A DNA stretch of 64,000 nt from Flavobacteriaceae bacterium (GTDB taxonomy: Bacteria; Bacteroidota; Bacteroidia; Flavobacteriales; Flavobacteriaceae). The first letter of the stretch is position 1; every line of letters begins with the position of its first letter. Under the pieces are notes generated by a model. The model did not search any database and was not told where the DNA came from. It worked only from the letters and a program-made list of their open reading frames with translations. Location of the stretch: assembly GCA_029248405.1 (NCBI GenBank), contig JAQWJJ010000011.1, positions 62,001-126,000 on the forward strand, in the 5' to 3' direction. Position numbers and translations under genes: made by a program. Below, piece by piece: positions 56,861 through 63,920 of this stretch.

Positions 56861-57502
56861 TCATTTCTTTCTTGCGATCGAAAGACCGTCTCGTATAGGC
56901 AATAATACCGTTTCTAATTCTTGATGTAGGTTAAGGGCTTGGTTGTAAACAAGTAAGGCCTTGGTGTCGGCATCATTCTCCGCTAACGGCTCAACGACCT
57001 TACCACTCCACAAAACATTGTCGCTGACAATCAATCCACCTTTTTTTAGTATTGGCACGACCAATTCTAAGTAAAGCGGATAGTTGGCTTTATCTGCATC
57101 GATGAATACCAAGTCAAAATGTTGGTCAAGTGTCGGTATGATGTCGCTCGCGGCGCCCAAATGTTGTATGATTTGAGTCCCCTTACCTGAGCGGTCAAAA
57201 TATTTTCTTTGGATGGCTTGTAGTTCTGGATTGCGATCTATGGTATGCAAGACACCATGTTCTGTCAGGCCTTCGGCCATGCATAATGCAGAATAACCCG
57301 TATAGGTGCCAATTTCTAGGATGTGCTCTGGAGCTTTGATTTTGACCAGAAGGCTCAGTAGGCGTCCTTGAAGGTGTCCGCTCAGCATTCTGGGTGCCAA
57401 AACGGTTTGCCATGTTTCTTTGTTCAGCGCCTTGAGTAGCTCTGGTTCTTCTTGAGAATGTGCGCTGGAATATAGGTCTATCGCTTGAGGGATAAATTCC
57501 AT
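56861..57502 (-). CDS. COMT-like O-methyltransferase at the end of the kynurenine operon
   Basis: The 213-residue SAM- and metal-dependent methyltransferase shows ILEIGTYTGYSALCMAEGL (SAM site), DLVFIDADKANYPLY (first metal Asp) and LIVSDNVLWSGKV (second Asp and Asn), as in catechol and caffeoyl-CoA O-methyltransferases, and ends LPIRDGLSIARKK. Its start overlaps the ACMSD stop by 1 base, so it is the last gene of the kynurenine operon. Bacterial members act on small hydroxylated aromatics or have unknown substrates. 3-Hydroxykynurenine or 3-hydroxyanthranilate would be candidate substrates, which is inference only. Confidence 0.88.
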   Translation of the reverse strand: MEFIPQAIDLYSSAHSQEEPELLKALNKETWQTVLAPRMLSGHLQGRLLSLLVKIKAPEHILEIGTYTGYSALCMAEGLTEHGVLHTIDRNPELQAIQRKYFDRSGKGTQIIQHLGAASDIIPTLDQHFDLVFIDADKANYPLYLELVVPILKKGGLIVSDNVLWSGKVVEPLAENDADTKALLVYNQALNLHQELETVLLPIRDGLSIARKK

Positions 57503-58584
57503 TAGCCTATTATCTTTTTGATCAATGCGTCTTTTTGTTGTTGGTCATCTCCAAACAACCATTGCAAAACGTTGTCTGACCATATGGCGTCATATTGGTC
57601 TTGATCCAATAGGCCTTGATTTTGGGCAAGGTCTAGAATCTTTCCTGGATACGATGACTGTGGTACGCTTTCCATTTCGCCAAGTGGGTAAGGATCATCA
57701 AGGCCCATGAGTACTTGTTTACTGCCTTGATTTTTGATCAATAATTCAAGGGATCCTGTATCATGCACCAAGGTGTCGAAAAATATATTTTTGTGTCCTA
57801 CACTTTTTCGTGGATGTGTTTTTCCTTCAAAAAGATCTGGTCGTCCATCAAATCCTTGGATCCGGCGGCCCAAGTTGATCTGGGCCAATTGACCCCCGTG
57901 GGCAAAACAAGTGCGCATATTGGGGTATTTGTCTGCGTAACCATTTAGGGTAAAAAAGTGATAGGCATCGGCACATTGTGCGAGCATCCAAATCAAATGA
58001 AAGCGCCATGCGGTATTTTGGAGTTTGATGAATTTTTCGCCATCATACGGATGTATTTCTACCGCTAAATTATAGGAGGAGGCCAATTCGAAAATGGGTT
58101 CGTTTTCGGGGTCAAATATGCTTCTCCAGGTGCCTATAGTATCCATGTAATGGGTCGGCAAACACAATAATTTCAGGCCCAATTCCTCTACACAACGCTC
58201 CATTTCCCATAAAGCGCCTCGGACAAAACCAGGGTGTACAACAAATCCGCAAGTGAATTTTTGACCATAATCTTGTTGGATGCGGGCATTAAAATCATTC
58301 TGGAATCGCAGTGCTTGTTTCATTTCTTCAAGACGCAAACCATTGCCATAAAGCTGAGATAAATTGAGCACTACGGCATGATCAATTTTAAAACGCTCCA
58401 TCCACTCGAGTTTTTCGTCCAAGAAAAAACTTGAATCAGTTACGGGACGGCTCCAATCTTTTTGAAGCATGTATTTGCGTTCTTTATCCACCCAGAAAAT
58501 CCCCTTATCCTTCATGAATGCAGGAATCTCTTCTGGATAGGGAAGAAGGTGAGAGTGTCCGTTAATGCGTAGTTTTCTGGCCAT
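57502..58584 (-). CDS. 2-Amino-3-carboxymuconate-6-semialdehyde decarboxylase (ACMSD)-type amidohydrolase
   Basis: ACMSD decarboxylates the ring-opened product of 3-hydroxyanthranilate and so diverts it from quinolinate/NAD synthesis. The 360-residue amidohydrolase-fold protein has the zinc-binding HxH in GHSHLLP (His10, His12), further histidines in CLPTHYMDT, AVEIHPYDG and CFAHGGQL, and the catalytic Asp in GLDDPYPLGE, the ACMSD version of GTDYPFPLGE. Context in a kynurenine operon supports the call. It lies 14 bases after the SDR gene and overlaps the O-methyltransferase gene by 1 base. Confidence 0.93.
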   Translation of the reverse strand: MARKLRINGHSHLLPYPEEIPAFMKDKGIFWVDKERKYMLQKDWSRPVTDSSFFLDEKLEWMERFKIDHAVVLNLSQLYGNGLRLEEMKQALRFQNDFNARIQQDYGQKFTCGFVVHPGFVRGALWEMERCVEELGLKLLCLPTHYMDTIGTWRSIFDPENEPIFELASSYNLAVEIHPYDGEKFIKLQNTAWRFHLIWMLAQCADAYHFFTLNGYADKYPNMRTCFAHGGQLAQINLGRRIQGFDGRPDLFEGKTHPRKSVGHKNIFFDTLVHDTGSLELLIKNQGSKQVLMGLDDPYPLGEMESVPQSSYPGKILDLAQNQGLLDQDQYDAIWSDNVLQWLFGDDQQQKDALIKKIIG

Positions 58585-58598
58585 ATTGAGGACTTAAG

Positions 58599-59384
58599 TT
58601 ACAAAGATTTAGTGCGCCCGCCATCGACGGGCAAATTAATTCCGTTGATATAGCCGGCGGCAGGACTTGCCAAAAAAGCAATACTGAAGGCGACTTCTTG
58701 CGGAGAGGCAAAGCGTCGGGCAGGGACAAGCGAGCGCATGAACTCAGCGGCTTCCTCAGGTGTTTTATTGAAACGATTTGCGGCACTGTTGACGATGTCT
58801 GCTAAACGATCCGTTTGGGTGAAGCCTGGTAAGACATTGTTGATGGTGATGCCAAATGGTCCGAGTTCTGTCGATAATGTCTTGCTCCAATTCGCGACAG
58901 CACCACGAATGGTGTTGCTTACTCCCAAATTTTCAATGGGTTGTTTGACCGAAGTAGAAATCACATTGATGATGCGTCCATACCCTTTAGCTTTCATGCC
59001 CGCAACCAAACCTTGAACCAGAATTTGGTTACACATGAGGTGCTGTGCAAAGGCATCGGCGTAAGCTTTTGGTGCTGCAGCTAGGGCTGGTCCACCTTTT
59101 GGCCCACCGGTGTTATTGACCAATATTTCATAAGGTTCTTTCCCCGCTAGTTCGTCTATTGTTTTTGAAAAGACTTCGAGGTCCGTGAAATCGACCGCCA
59201 CGAATTGATGGTGCTGTTGCCCATTATTTGGCAATTCGTCAAGGACTGCTTTGAGCTTGTCTGGGTTTCTGGCCATGATGGTGACATGAGCGCCGAGCGC
59301 AGCAAGTTCTATAGCGGCTGCTTTGCCGATACCTGCAGATCCGCCGCAGACCAATGCTTTTTTGTGAGCGATACTTAGATTCAT
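58599..59384 (-). CDS. SDR-fold protein lacking the YxxxK catalytic pair, in the kynurenine operon
   Basis: From ATG 59384 the protein has 261 residues; a longer frame from 59471 runs back into the dehydrogenase gene. The cofactor loop is CGGSAGIGKA (residues 13-22), slightly off the classical TGxxxGxG, and VNNTGGPKGG replaces NNAG. Where classical SDRs have Ser and YxxxK it reads VISTSV (Ser143) and SNTIR (156-160), so both Tyr and Lys are missing. This fits an atypical BKR-like SDR group. No step of the known 2-aminomuconate pathway needs such a protein, so its role is open. Confidence 0.88.
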   Translation of the reverse strand: MNLSIAHKKALVCGGSAGIGKAAAIELAALGAHVTIMARNPDKLKAVLDELPNNGQQHHQFVAVDFTDLEVFSKTIDELAGKEPYEILVNNTGGPKGGPALAAAPKAYADAFAQHLMCNQILVQGLVAGMKAKGYGRIINVISTSVKQPIENLGVSNTIRGAVANWSKTLSTELGPFGITINNVLPGFTQTDRLADIVNSAANRFNKTPEEAAEFMRSLVPARRFASPQEVAFSIAFLASPAAGYINGINLPVDGGRTKSL

Positions 59385-59385
59385 T

Positions 59386-60834
59386 TTATGTGGTCTTATA
59401 ATTGATACAAACGTTTTTGGCTTCAGTAAAGAAGCGCAGGGCCTCAAAACCTCCTTCACGACCAACACCACTGGCTTTTATACCGCCGAATGGTGTGCGG
59501 AGATCCCGATTCATCCATGTATTGATCCAAACAATTCCAGCCTGAATAGATTGACTCATGCGCATTGAGCGGTCTAAGTCAGAGGTCCAGACACTGGCCG
59601 AAAGCCCATAGGGGACATCGTTGGCGTAATTCAATACTTCCTGCTCACCATCAAAGGGCATGAGTGTCACAACAGGCCCGAATATTTCCTCTTGATTGAC
59701 ACGGCAATCTGCCCGTTTGACCTCGATGACCGTTGGTGCCAAATAGAAGCCCTTCTCATGGCCTTGGACAACAACCTTATGGCCTCCTGTAAGCACGCGT
59801 CCGCCTTCTTCCTGTGCCACAGCAATATAGTGCAGTATTTTGTCTCTATGGTCCTCTGAAACAATGGCGCCGAGATAGACGTCTTGGGCAGGATGACCGA
59901 CAGTCAGTTGGGCAACACGTGACACAAAATCGTTCTTGAATTTTTCAAAAATAGAGCGTTCCACAAATATTCGGCTGCCACAGAGACAAATTTGACCCTG
60001 ATTGGCAAATGAAGACCTGATGGTGACGTCGAGCATTTTTTGATAGTCACAATCAGCGAATATGACATTCGGATTTTTACCGCCGAGTTCTAACGATAAT
60101 TTCTTGAACATTGGTGCAGCTGTCCGGGCAATATGGGCTCCAGTTTTGGTGCCTCCGGTAAATGAGATGGCTTTGATTCCAGGATGTTCAATAATGGCTT
60201 GACCAGCACTATTTCCTGTGCCGTGAACAATATTCAGGACGCCTGGAGGAAGTCCAGCCTTTTGGACGATCTCGGCTAACAAATAGGCGGTGGCTGGAGT
60301 GACTTCACTTGGTTTGGCAACCACTGTATTGCCAGCGGCAATGGCGGGCGCTATTTTCCAAGTAAAGAGGTAAAGGGGTAGGTTCCATGGAGAAATACAG
60401 CCCACCACGCCCAAGGGTTGCCTTAAGGTAAAATTCAGGGTGTTCTGTCCTGTACTCTCATGAGATTCACTGGCAAACTGAGTAATGGCATGACCAAAAA
60501 ACCTGAAGTTTGCAGCCGCACGTGGAATATCAACGCTCAAAGCTAATTTTAATGGTTTGCCATTGTCTTTGGATTCTGCCCGTGCAAGTTCTTGTGCTTG
60601 TTCATCGATGAGGTCTGCTATAGTGAGCAAAATTTTGCTTCGTTGGTCTAAAGTGGTCTGGCGCCAAGAGTCGAAGGCTTCTGCAGCAGCCTTGTATGCC
60701 AAACCAACATCAGTTTGATCACTATCGGGAATGGCCCCGTAAACTTCGCCGCTACTTGGATCAATATTGTCCAAACAGCGCTGGCTCGCGGCATCAGAAA
60801 AAGTTCCTCCGATAAAGTTTTGGATCCTTAACAT
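59386..60834 (-). CDS. 2-Aminomuconate-6-semialdehyde dehydrogenase
   Basis: This NAD+-dependent aldehyde dehydrogenase oxidises 2-aminomuconate semialdehyde to 2-aminomuconate, the step after ACMSD. The 482-residue protein has the active-site Cys283 in NQGQICLCGSR, Glu249 in SLELGGKNP and Asn151 in SPWNLP. The CLCGSR form of the cysteine motif is the version I associate with AMSDH/ALDH8A1-type enzymes. It lies 1 base after the RidA gene and 1 base before the SDR gene, which supports the substrate assignment. Confidence 0.92.
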   Translation of the reverse strand: MLRIQNFIGGTFSDAASQRCLDNIDPSSGEVYGAIPDSDQTDVGLAYKAAAEAFDSWRQTTLDQRSKILLTIADLIDEQAQELARAESKDNGKPLKLALSVDIPRAAANFRFFGHAITQFASESHESTGQNTLNFTLRQPLGVVGCISPWNLPLYLFTWKIAPAIAAGNTVVAKPSEVTPATAYLLAEIVQKAGLPPGVLNIVHGTGNSAGQAIIEHPGIKAISFTGGTKTGAHIARTAAPMFKKLSLELGGKNPNVIFADCDYQKMLDVTIRSSFANQGQICLCGSRIFVERSIFEKFKNDFVSRVAQLTVGHPAQDVYLGAIVSEDHRDKILHYIAVAQEEGGRVLTGGHKVVVQGHEKGFYLAPTVIEVKRADCRVNQEEIFGPVVTLMPFDGEQEVLNYANDVPYGLSASVWTSDLDRSMRMSQSIQAGIVWINTWMNRDLRTPFGGIKASGVGREGGFEALRFFTEAKNVCINYKTT

Positions 60835-60835
60835 G

Positions 60836-61261
60836 CTAAAGTGGTTTATAGGCCATGGCTTTAATTTCGATCAGTAGATGAGGGTGAGGCAGTTGGTGCA
60901 CTGCTACTGTGGTCCTGGCAGGGCCTCTCTCATGACTAAAATATTGGGCATAAACTTCGTTATAGCCTGCAAAATCATTCATATTGACCAAAAAAGTTGT
61001 CAAATCGACTAAGTCTTCCAATGTCGCATTTTCAGCAGCAAGATAATCACTGATGTTGTCCAAGACTGCTTTGGTCTGTTGTTTGATGTCCAAAGACATG
61101 GTGCCCATTGCATCGACTTTTTGCACTCCAGCAAATGAATTGTCAGGCAAGCGTGAACTTGTCCCACTGATGAAAATATAATCGCCAACGCGCTTGATGT
61201 GCGGATATGCGCCCCTGGGTGTTGCTTTCCCGTCAATTAATTTATTTTCTGATCCCGTCAT
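60836..61261 (-). CDS. RidA-family protein, probable 2-aminomuconate deaminase
   Basis: The 141-residue protein is a YjgF/YER057c/UK114 (RidA) fold member. It shows the segments YPHIKRVGDYIFISGTSSR, QQTKAVLDNISDYLA, FLVNMNDFAGYNEVYAQYF and ARTTVAVHQLPHPHLLIEIKA. The substrate-binding Arg and Glu expected in the last part are present. Its length and operon position between KMO and the semialdehyde dehydrogenase match AmnD/NbaF, which deaminates 2-aminomuconate to 4-oxalocrotonate. A general enamine deaminase function cannot be excluded. Confidence 0.88.
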   Translation of the reverse strand: MTGSENKLIDGKATPRGAYPHIKRVGDYIFISGTSSRLPDNSFAGVQKVDAMGTMSLDIKQQTKAVLDNISDYLAAENATLEDLVDLTTFLVNMNDFAGYNEVYAQYFSHERGPARTTVAVHQLPHPHLLIEIKAMAYKPL

Positions 61262-61269
61262 ATGAATGA

Positions 61270-62655
61270 TTATTTGATTAAACCCTGATCTAAAATTTCG
61301 TTTGTTCTTTCCTGTACCTTATTGAAGCGTTCTTTGAGCGCCATTTCTTTTGGTAATTTGTCTTCTCGTAGTAGTGATAAAATGGCTTTGTCTTGCGCTC
61401 TTCCGCGTTGCATAGCAGTATGGTAGGGGATGTCCGCATGAAAAGTAACCAAAGAATACTTGCTCGCATAGAGTTCCGGTAGCTCGGTCTCAAAAGCGAC
61501 TTCGAGTTGTCTTTTCTGCTGGAAATAGGGGTCAGCGGTATGCTCTTTCATCTCATGAAAATTATCCAATGCCAAATCTGCAATGGCGTCAGTATTGATT
61601 TTTCTCAAGTTTTCGAAAGCAGTAAATCGTTCGGGCCAACCGTTATGGTTTTGTGCCAAGACTTGATCAAAAACCAAAACATCTTCGAATGATGCATTCA
61701 TGCCTTGACCATAAAAAGGCACAATGGCATGCGCCGCATCACCCATAATCAGGGTTTTATCAAAACAGTGCCAAGGACTGCATCTTATGGTGCCTAAACC
61801 GCCTGTTGGGTTTTTTTGGTATTGATCCACCAGATCGGGGATCAACTTGAGCATGTCCGGATATTGGGTATTGAAAAATTCTGTGATGTCTGCTTCTTGA
61901 ATCAGGTGGTCAAATCCATAAGGTTGCTCCGCATAACTCATAAAGAGGGTAACAGTAAAACTCCCATTGAGGTTTGGCAAGGCGATGAGCATGTCTTTGC
62001 CTCGGGGCCAGATATGCAGGGCATCTGGATCTAAGAGGTAGTCGCCTTTTGGTCCTGCTGGAATTTCTAATTCTTTGTATCCATGTGACAGCCATTCTTG
62101 AGCAAAGCTAAAACGCATGGTAGGGGTGGCAAACATACTTTGACGTACTTTTGATCCAGCGCCGTCGGCACCGATCAAAATATCTCCAGACAATTGGACT
62201 TGCTCTTGGCCATGATGGTCGTAGAATACTGCAGTTCCATCATTCAGGGCTACGGATTGGCAGGACAAATTGAATTGCACAGTGATGTTGGCCATTTTGT
62301 CAATTTCGTCTAAAAGCAACGCATTGAGACCAGGTCTTGAGATGGAATTGATGGCGGTATCGGGTCGCCCACTGTAAGGGCTAAAAAAAGATTTTGAATG
62401 CTGCTGGTGGATCATTCTCCCACGCATGGGAATGCACAAGGCCTGGACCTTTTTCCCAAGCCCCGCAAGACTTAAGGCTTTTAATCCACGGGCGCTGAGC
62501 GCCAAATTGATAGAGCGGCCCGCATCGAGTGGTTGCAGTCTGAGATCAGGTCGTTTCTCTGCTAAAGTCACCTTATGGCCCAGCTGCCCTAGACGTAATG
62601 CCAGAAGACTGCCGCAAAGGCCTGCGCCTACAATTAAAATATGGTCTTTGGTCAT
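61270..62655 (-). CDS. kmo: Kynurenine 3-monooxygenase
   Basis: KMO is an FAD- and NADPH-dependent hydroxylase that makes 3-hydroxykynurenine. The 461-residue protein has the FAD motif VGAGLCGSLLALRLGQLG (residues 9-26), AGRSINLALSARG, GADGAGSKVR and the second FAD motif GDAAHAIVPFYGQGMNA starting at 305. These match the KMO branch of the PHBH-type flavoproteins. The protein may be membrane-associated through its C-terminal helices. It overlaps kynU by 4 bases (ATGA), and ridA follows after 8 bases. Confidence 0.96.
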   Translation of the reverse strand: MTKDHILIVGAGLCGSLLALRLGQLGHKVTLAEKRPDLRLQPLDAGRSINLALSARGLKALSLAGLGKKVQALCIPMRGRMIHQQHSKSFFSPYSGRPDTAINSISRPGLNALLLDEIDKMANITVQFNLSCQSVALNDGTAVFYDHHGQEQVQLSGDILIGADGAGSKVRQSMFATPTMRFSFAQEWLSHGYKELEIPAGPKGDYLLDPDALHIWPRGKDMLIALPNLNGSFTVTLFMSYAEQPYGFDHLIQEADITEFFNTQYPDMLKLIPDLVDQYQKNPTGGLGTIRCSPWHCFDKTLIMGDAAHAIVPFYGQGMNASFEDVLVFDQVLAQNHNGWPERFTAFENLRKINTDAIADLALDNFHEMKEHTADPYFQQKRQLEVAFETELPELYASKYSLVTFHADIPYHTAMQRGRAQDKAILSLLREDKLPKEMALKERFNKVQERTNEILDQGLIK

Positions 62656-63920
62656 GCAACAACTTCTTTTAAATGTTCGACAAATTGAAATACATCCTCA
62701 AAGCTATTATACATCGGAGTGGGCGCTACTCTTATCACATCAGGCTCTCGCCAATCGCAGACCACACCACGCTCTGTAAGGGCATCATGCAGAAGCTTAT
62801 TGCTGTCTTTGATTTGAAGAGATAATTGGCAGCCCCGTTCAAGAGGATTTCTGGGTGTGATCACCCGGATCTTGTCTGATGACAAGTCATCGATCAAATA
62901 TTCTAGGTAACCTGTTAGTTTTATTGATTTCGCCCTCAAGCGGGTCATTGATGCCTGATGGAACAAATCTAAAGAAGCCCTAATTGCTGCCATGGATAGG
63001 ATTGGCGGATTGCTCAACTGCCACCCTTCGGCACCTGGAATCGGGTCGAAGTCATGTCGCATATTGAATCGGGTTGTCTTGTTATGTCCCCACCATCCCG
63101 TGAATCTTGGCAGTGTTTTGTCTTGCGCATGGCGTTCGTGCACGAAGACCCCTCCTAAACTTCCTGGGCCACTATTGAGGTATTTGTAGGTGCACCAAAC
63201 TGCAAAATCAGGTCCGTTTTTGTGCAGTTCTGGCATGATATTGCCCACACCGTGTGCCAAATCAAACCCGACTAAGGCACCATGTTGATGGCCTAAATTT
63301 GTGATGCGGTCAATGGGGTAGGCCTGACCGGTATAATAGTTTGTGTTGCCGAGCAAAACTAACGCGACTTGGTGCCCCTGCGCTGTCATCAAATCCTCGA
63401 GGTCCGCAAAGTTGCACAGTTCTTCTCCATTGGGAGGCGCCCATTGGATCAACGCCTCTTTAGGGTCATATCCATGAAAGCGCAATTGACTTTCTACCGC
63501 ATAGCGATCACTAGGAAAGGCATCTTTTTCTATCACGACTTTGAAACGCTTGTCTGTGGGTCTATAAAACGATACCATCATCAGATGTAAGTTTGCGGTC
63601 AATCCGTTCATCACAACCACCTCGTGGTCTTTGGCTCCAACAATTTCTGCCATTTGTTGGGTCAAAAATTCGTGATAGGGGAGCCAAGGATGTGTTCCTT
63701 CAGTATGTCCGTCTACCCCTAAAGCGCGCCATGAGTCTAGTTCTTCTTTAAGGAACTGTTCGGTTTGCTTGGGTTGGAGTCCTAATGAATTGCCACACAA
63801 ATATACTGTGGGGCCTCCGTTTGGCGTTTGGGGCAAGTAAAAGGCATCACGAAAGGAGCGTAAAGGGTCTTTAAGGTCAGCGGCTTGAGCGAATTCTAAG
63901 GTGTTTTGATACAATGTCAT
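62652..63920 (-). CDS. kynU: Kynureninase
   Basis: Kynureninase is a PLP enzyme that cleaves 3-hydroxykynurenine or kynurenine to (hydroxy)anthranilate and alanine. The 422-residue protein contains YLCGNSLGLQPKQT at the N-terminus, GLTANLHLMMVSFYRPT, VGFDLAHGVGN (PLP-binding Asp) and the Schiff-base lysine Lys246 in VWCTYKYLNSGPGS. SNPPILSMAAIRASLDLF is a further signature. It is the first gene of the operon visible here; the 80 bases upstream to the window edge hold only a weak promoter-like TACTTTTA at 63970-63977. Confidence 0.96.
   Translation of the reverse strand: MTLYQNTLEFAQAADLKDPLRSFRDAFYLPQTPNGGPTVYLCGNSLGLQPKQTEQFLKEELDSWRALGVDGHTEGTHPWLPYHEFLTQQMAEIVGAKDHEVVVMNGLTANLHLMMVSFYRPTDKRFKVVIEKDAFPSDRYAVESQLRFHGYDPKEALIQWAPPNGEELCNFADLEDLMTAQGHQVALVLLGNTNYYTGQAYPIDRITNLGHQHGALVGFDLAHGVGNIMPELHKNGPDFAVWCTYKYLNSGPGSLGGVFVHERHAQDKTLPRFTGWWGHNKTTRFNMRHDFDPIPGAEGWQLSNPPILSMAAIRASLDLFHQASMTRLRAKSIKLTGYLEYLIDDLSSDKIRVITPRNPLERGCQLSLQIKDSNKLLHDALTERGVVCDWREPDVIRVAPTPMYNSFEDVFQFVEHLKEVVA

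Follow-up and report, generated by a model that had tools for sequence, protein, structure and literature searches.

A tyrosine-less SDR protein encoded in a flavobacterial kynurenine operon is a candidate ene-reductase of the 2-aminomuconate branch

An SDR gene within a kynurenine operon

The window, i.e., the whole stretch of 64,000 nucleotides that was analyzed, comes from a marine bacterium and contains a minus-strand operon with the gene order kynureninase, kynurenine 3-monooxygenase (KMO), RidA, 2-aminomuconate semialdehyde dehydrogenase (AMSDH), SDR, ACMSD, and O-methyltransferase. The kynureninase (positions 62652 to 63920) matched TIGR01814 over the cut-off, at 464.6 bits, and KMO (61270 to 62655) was assigned from its FAD_binding_3 domain and its operon position and is conserved in the operon orthologs. 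The RidA-family protein (60836 to 61261), assigned as a 2-aminomuconate deaminase of the AmnD/NbaF type, matched the families TIGR00004 and PRK11401 and is 60 to 67% identical to the RidA proteins encoded next to 3-hydroxyanthranilate dioxygenase (HAO) in classical clusters. AMSDH (59386 to 60834), a Pfam Aldedh protein, scored 566.9 bits against TIGR03216, below the cut-off of 693, and shares 44 to 48% identity with the AMSDH of classical HAO clusters.

The SDR gene (58599 to 59384) encodes a protein of 261 amino acids, a predicted NADPH-dependent 2-oxohex-3-enedioate (4-oxalocrotonate)/2-aminomuconate reductase. The gaps of 1 base to AMSDH and 14 bases to ACMSD given in a first-pass annotation of this DNA were confirmed. 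Translation starts at the ATG at 59384; a longer open reading frame with a GTG start at 59471 is unsupported because the homologs begin at the same methionine as the ATG.

The ACMSD gene (57502 to 58584) encodes a divergent ACMSD-like amidohydrolase (Amidohydro_2) that is 24 to 30% identical to classical ACMSD and matched no NCBIfam model. No other protein encoded in the operon is as well conserved (75 to 96% across flavobacterial operons, mostly 78 to 96%), and its HxH and later His/Asp motifs, as judged by eye, are retained. The operon ends with an O-methyltransferase gene (56861 to 57502; PF01596), which is conserved in flavobacterial operons. Its product is of the catechol/caffeoyl-CoA type and accompanies the operon in 48 loci; to our knowledge, no O-methyltransferase step has been described in the kynurenine pathway.

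Active site and conservation of the SDR protein

Membership in the SDR superfamily follows from matches to PF13561 and PF00106 over their cut-offs, a GxxxGxG loop, an NNxG motif (present as NNTGG), and the Rossmann fold. The protein does not have the active site of a classical, catalytically competent SDR: aligned with L002, an ordinary SDR that is encoded in this genome and carries N, S, Y, and K, its tetrad reads H115-S143-S156-R160. The same alignment bears out the initial reading of the YxxxK motif as SNTIR, placing S156-N-T-I-R160 at that position, and revealed no displaced Tyr near positions 140 to 165 that might restore a Tyr/Lys pair. The cofactor loop had also been called off-consensus. 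This is accurate for the replacement of Thr by Cys in CGGSAGIG and is otherwise overstated, because the loop is nearly normal: GxxxGIG is retained, strand 2 ends in an invariant R39, and NADP(H) is bound by the nearest relatives of solved structure.

H115, S143, K147, S156, N157, and R160 are invariant in 46 homologs from several phyla (56 to 85% identity), and the differences from the closest homolog are mostly synonymous (pN, 0.09; pS, 0.77). These results argue that the unusual active site is maintained by selection, and they rule out a pseudoenzyme or a decaying gene. The S-N-x-x-R motif is present in 100 of the 101 SDR sequences examined, the exception (L122) having S-T, and position 115 is Leu in some outlying members. 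The protein carries the motif of the Tyr-less S-N-x-x-R group, for which NADP(H) binding has been seen in relatives of the window protein rather than in that protein itself. The absence of the tyrosine is a family-wide trait, and it fits reduction of a C=C rather than a C=O bond. Another SDR of the window's genome (L003), 28% identical to the operon protein, has Ser at the Tyr position and retains the Lys; it resembles SDRs of the 2,4-dienoyl-CoA reductase type.

Linkage to the 2-aminomuconate branch

A scan of GTDB genomes for relatives of the SDR gave 80 loci. A kynurenine-pathway gene was present at 76 of these, and AMSDH lay within 3 kb of the SDR at 68, so that the conserved link to ACMSD and AMSDH genes by which a pathway role was to be judged is found across many genomes, as is one to HAO genes. 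Gene order varies by lineage, and the SDR-AMSDH pair usually remains intact. The Flavobacteriaceae have kynureninase (KYNU)-KMO-RidA-AMSDH-SDR-(HAO)-ACMSD-O-methyltransferase, SDR-AMSDH diverges from HAO-KYNU-KMO in Cytophagales-type genomes, and in planctomycete loci KYNU-KMO is encoded on the strand opposite SDR-AMSDH. In a sample of 340 genomes from the class of the Lysobacteraceae genome G023, the SDR was found in 6 genomes, with AMSDH close by in 4 and a complete SDR-AMSDH-RidA-HAO-ACMSD cluster in 2. Every linked protein in a tree of 104 SDRs fell into one clade of 95 sequences (support, 95), and the unlinked LALSN-type SDRs formed a clade apart from it.

Small cupin genes were seen beside two unlinked copies of the SDR (L121, 7525 to 7851; L124, 7263 to 7670). 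Two proteins that group with those of the Flavobacteriaceae come from records labeled Candidatus Rokubacteria (L010, which carries the whole operon) and Oceanospirillaceae (L034); both records are probably misbinned or mislabeled.

The branch of the pathway that the SDR serves was addressed by co-occurrence in 296 Bacteroidota genomes, using identity cut-offs of at least 55% for AMSDH and at least 44% for the SDR. HAO was present in 68 genomes, AMSDH in 40, and the SDR in 48. The SDR was found in 38 of the 40 genomes with AMSDH and in 2 of the 28 HAO-positive genomes without AMSDH (Fisher test, 3e-14, with the caveat that related genomes are not independent). This distribution indicates that the SDR tracks the branch after 2-amino-3-carboxymuconate semialdehyde (ACMS) and not the upstream steps; the HAO-positive, AMSDH-negative Bacteroidota probably use HAO for NAD synthesis. 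A function in upstream steps shared by all kynurenine users, such as hydrolysis of N-formylkynurenine, might be suggested by SDR genes that sometimes adjoin tryptophan dioxygenase or kynureninase, but the near absence of the SDR from HAO-positive genomes without AMSDH brings it close to refutation, as does a separate gene for a formamidase-type cyclase-family protein in the genome of the window and in most of the AMSDH-positive genomes.

Ten genomes carried the SDR without AMSDH and may have lost AMSDH secondarily or may put the protein to another use; in 3 of them (G061, G281, and G154), the SDR adjoins kynureninase and HAO is lacking, and G150 and G178 are further examples without AMSDH. A kynureninase-adjoining SDR is seen at L117, L118, and L120, in genomes without HAO, AMSDH, or the cyclase-family formamidase, i.e., in a reduced operon.

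Absence of the classical tail

The 3-hydroxyanthranilate (nba/amn) pathway of Burkholderia and Pseudomonas shares HAO, ACMSD, AMSDH, and a RidA deaminase with the type represented by the window. The classical tail consists of 4-oxalocrotonate decarboxylase, 2-oxopent-4-enoate hydratase, and 4-hydroxy-2-oxovalerate aldolase. Whereas the nba/amn pathway goes on with these DmpH/DmpE/DmpG/DmpF-type enzymes, the window type lacks them and has the SDR instead. With a DmpH profile, which also finds DmpE, no such gene was detected in 39 of the 40 AMSDH-positive Bacteroidota, and the remaining genome gave one weak FAH-like match. In a second set, of 29 SDR-positive genomes, 27 had no match to the profile and none had a 4-hydroxy-2-oxovalerate aldolase over the cut-off. 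The genome of the window (92% complete) is not of the classical nba/amn type, as neither a DmpH-type gene nor an aldolase above the cut-off was detected in it.

The converse arrangement is seen in annotated clusters on plasmids of Caballeronia, Cupriavidus, Rhodococcus, Vibrio, Streptomyces, and Polaromonas, which contain HAO, RidA, and ACMSD and/or AMSDH together with FAH/DmpE/DmpF/DmpG-type genes; an SDR of the window's type was not found in them, and the best plasmid matches to the SDR reached at most 40% identity. An SDR in the Caballeronia HAO cluster was considered as a counterpart and rejected, being an ordinary SASK-type protein unrelated within the family. Likewise, in genome G156, HAO lies next to a gene of the DmpH type, and no member of the SDR clade is present. 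Genome G321 has AMSDH, RidA, HAO, and ACMSD with neither the SDR nor DmpH. Operons of the Mesonia group (L038, 3642 to 4403; L045; L053; L057) encode both the SDR and an FAH-family DmpH/DmpE-like protein; the latter lies between KMO and RidA and scored 163 bits, with an equivalog cut-off of 350.

All 40 AMSDH-positive Bacteroidota genomes contain glutaryl-CoA dehydrogenase (GCDH). In the 1.9-Mb genome of the window, it is one of four acyl-CoA dehydrogenases and is closely related to the solved human and bacterial enzymes. GCDH was present in 26 of the 29 SDR-positive genomes, and 3 showed none. As it is common in the phylum (220 of the 296 Bacteroidota genomes), GCDH is necessary for the route proposed below without being specific support for it.

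The tight coupling of the SDR to AMSDH and ACMSD, and its retention in some genomes without AMSDH, might instead mean that the SDR clears away a by-product that arises in the branch, e.g., by reducing aminomuconate semialdehyde, the unstable product of ACMSD (PMC4539516), or a different aldehyde. We regard this as improbable. The same semialdehyde is handled in classical clusters without an SDR of this type, and the AMSDH-positive Bacteroidota would be left without a known way past 4-oxalocrotonate. Moreover, carbonyl-reducing SDRs normally require the Tyr/Lys pair, which is absent here.

Structural relatives and proposed reaction

The AlphaFold2 model of the SDR (pLDDT, 90.2; pTM, 0.90) aligned with PDB 5va8 at a TM score of 0.91. 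Its fold matches were, in order, NADP(H)-bound Burkholderia S-N-x-x-R SDRs, AerF, and YwfH/BacG, in agreement with the profile neighbors. Structures 5va8, 5idx/5idy, 5vps, and 1o5i share the S-N-x-x-R motif with the window protein and presumably correspond to the CDD group of BKR-like atypical SDRs; we know of no activity for any S-N-x-x-R member. The Burkholderia structures are 35 to 38% identical to the window protein, and NADP(H) is bound in 5va8, 5idy, and 5vps. They are distinguished from it by Asn in place of His at position 115 (in 5va8) and by the separate clade that the kynurenine-linked proteins form (support, 95).

The nearest relatives with a characterized function are BacG/YwfH and AerF, which, like the window protein, have an SDR fold, no Tyr/Lys pair, and Lys at position 147 in K-x-P. 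BacG converts epoxy-3E-H2HPP to epoxy-4S-H4HPP (PMC9147277). The YwfH structure was released as that of an NADPH-dependent reductase, and AerF structures were released with NADPH and with 4-hydroxyphenylpyruvate. The BacG conversion is a reduction of the C3=C4 bond in a 2-oxo-3-enoic acid. The same class of acids includes 4-oxalocrotonate, which yields 2-oxoadipate on reduction. BacG and AerF are only 29 to 31% identical to the window SDR, their substrates are ring-bearing and belong to secondary metabolism, and positions 156 and 160 are S and N in AerF and N and N in BacG versus S and R here; the resemblance would therefore be one of how the enzymes may work and not of family membership.

These relatives also bear on the non-redox role, as a chaperone or channeling protein, that had been offered for the SDR. 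The missing Tyr/Lys pair and the adjacency to the ACMSD and AMSDH genes speak for such a partner of the two enzymes, but the active-site and nucleotide-loop residues of the SDR are invariant, NADP(H) is bound in crystals of close relatives, and the SDR was not found in classical clusters, whose pathway has the same labile intermediates. Because the closest characterized Tyr-less relatives are NADPH-dependent reductases, a reductase is favored, and we consider a chaperone role very unlikely.

The first-pass annotation had held that the described 2-aminomuconate route has no step for a ketoreductase. This does not stand for the animal route, in which the 2-aminomuconate/oxalocrotonate stage is reduced to 2-oxoadipate according to PMC5897657 and a review figure legend that names an "oxalocrotonate reductase" (PMC12899273); for Aspergillus, PMC7842363 puts reduction to 2-oxoadipate forward as an option. 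The first-pass suggestion that the SDR could be a component of a known pathway that has yet to be described fared better, since our literature search found no gene for the reductase forming 2-oxoadipate.

Gene linkage, co-occurrence with AMSDH, the missing classical tail, the presence of GCDH, the conserved active site, and kinship with BacG/AerF together lead us to propose, with moderate confidence, that the SDR serves the 2-aminomuconate branch as an NADPH-dependent ene-reductase and feeds 2-oxoadipate into the glutaryl-CoA route; its substrate, product, and cofactor are predicted. Against this proposal count the ten SDR-positive genomes without AMSDH, G321, the Mesonia-group loci, the SDR-positive genomes in which GCDH was not found, and the outlying members with Leu at position 115. 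ACMSD and AMSDH would produce 2-aminomuconate, which RidA would deaminate to 2-oxohex-3-enedioate (4-oxalocrotonate). By hydride addition at C4 of the 2-oxo-3-enoic acid group, the SDR would then form 2-oxoadipate. The oxoglutarate dehydrogenase complex may act as the oxoadipate dehydrogenase, forming glutaryl-CoA, and GCDH would complete an animal-type tail, where Burkholderia and Pseudomonas have one that leads to pyruvate and acetaldehyde. The reaction to 2-oxoadipate would be the same as that in the mammalian glutarate route of tryptophan, which likewise continues to glutaryl-CoA. H115, K147, S156, and R160 may bind the carboxylates and/or stabilize and protonate the enolate, and the Tyr/Lys pair would be dispensable because a conjugated C=C bond is reduced and protonation of a carbonyl oxygen by Tyr is not required.

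The order of the RidA and SDR steps could be the reverse, with the SDR reducing 2-aminomuconate itself and RidA then hydrolyzing the 2-iminoadipate or enamine to 2-oxoadipate, for the same net route. Linkage and co-occurrence fit this order equally well, and RidA proteins act on enamines and imines. We nevertheless think it rather unlikely, as the RidA of the window closely resembles proteins that are presumed to deaminate 2-aminomuconate in clusters lacking a reductase. This resemblance makes deamination before reduction the simpler order, with 4-oxalocrotonate expected in window-type and classical clusters alike.

Implications for bacterial tryptophan degradation

We give about even chances to the broader proposal that Bacteroidota, some Planctomycetota, and some Gammaproteobacteria degrade tryptophan via 2-oxoadipate and glutaryl-CoA and that the SDR is the first gene for the reductase step known biochemically from mammals, for which pathway charts show the 2-aminomuconate stage being reduced to 2-oxoadipate. 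If this is true, the bacterial pathway would have two tails, one leading to acetaldehyde and pyruvate and the other to glutaryl-CoA, which could be read from genomes, and many annotations as "SDR family oxidoreductase" could be corrected. The orphan SDR crystal structures would also gain a chemistry, in which the C=C bond of 2-oxo-3-enoic acids is reduced, and with it an explanation for their absent tyrosine.
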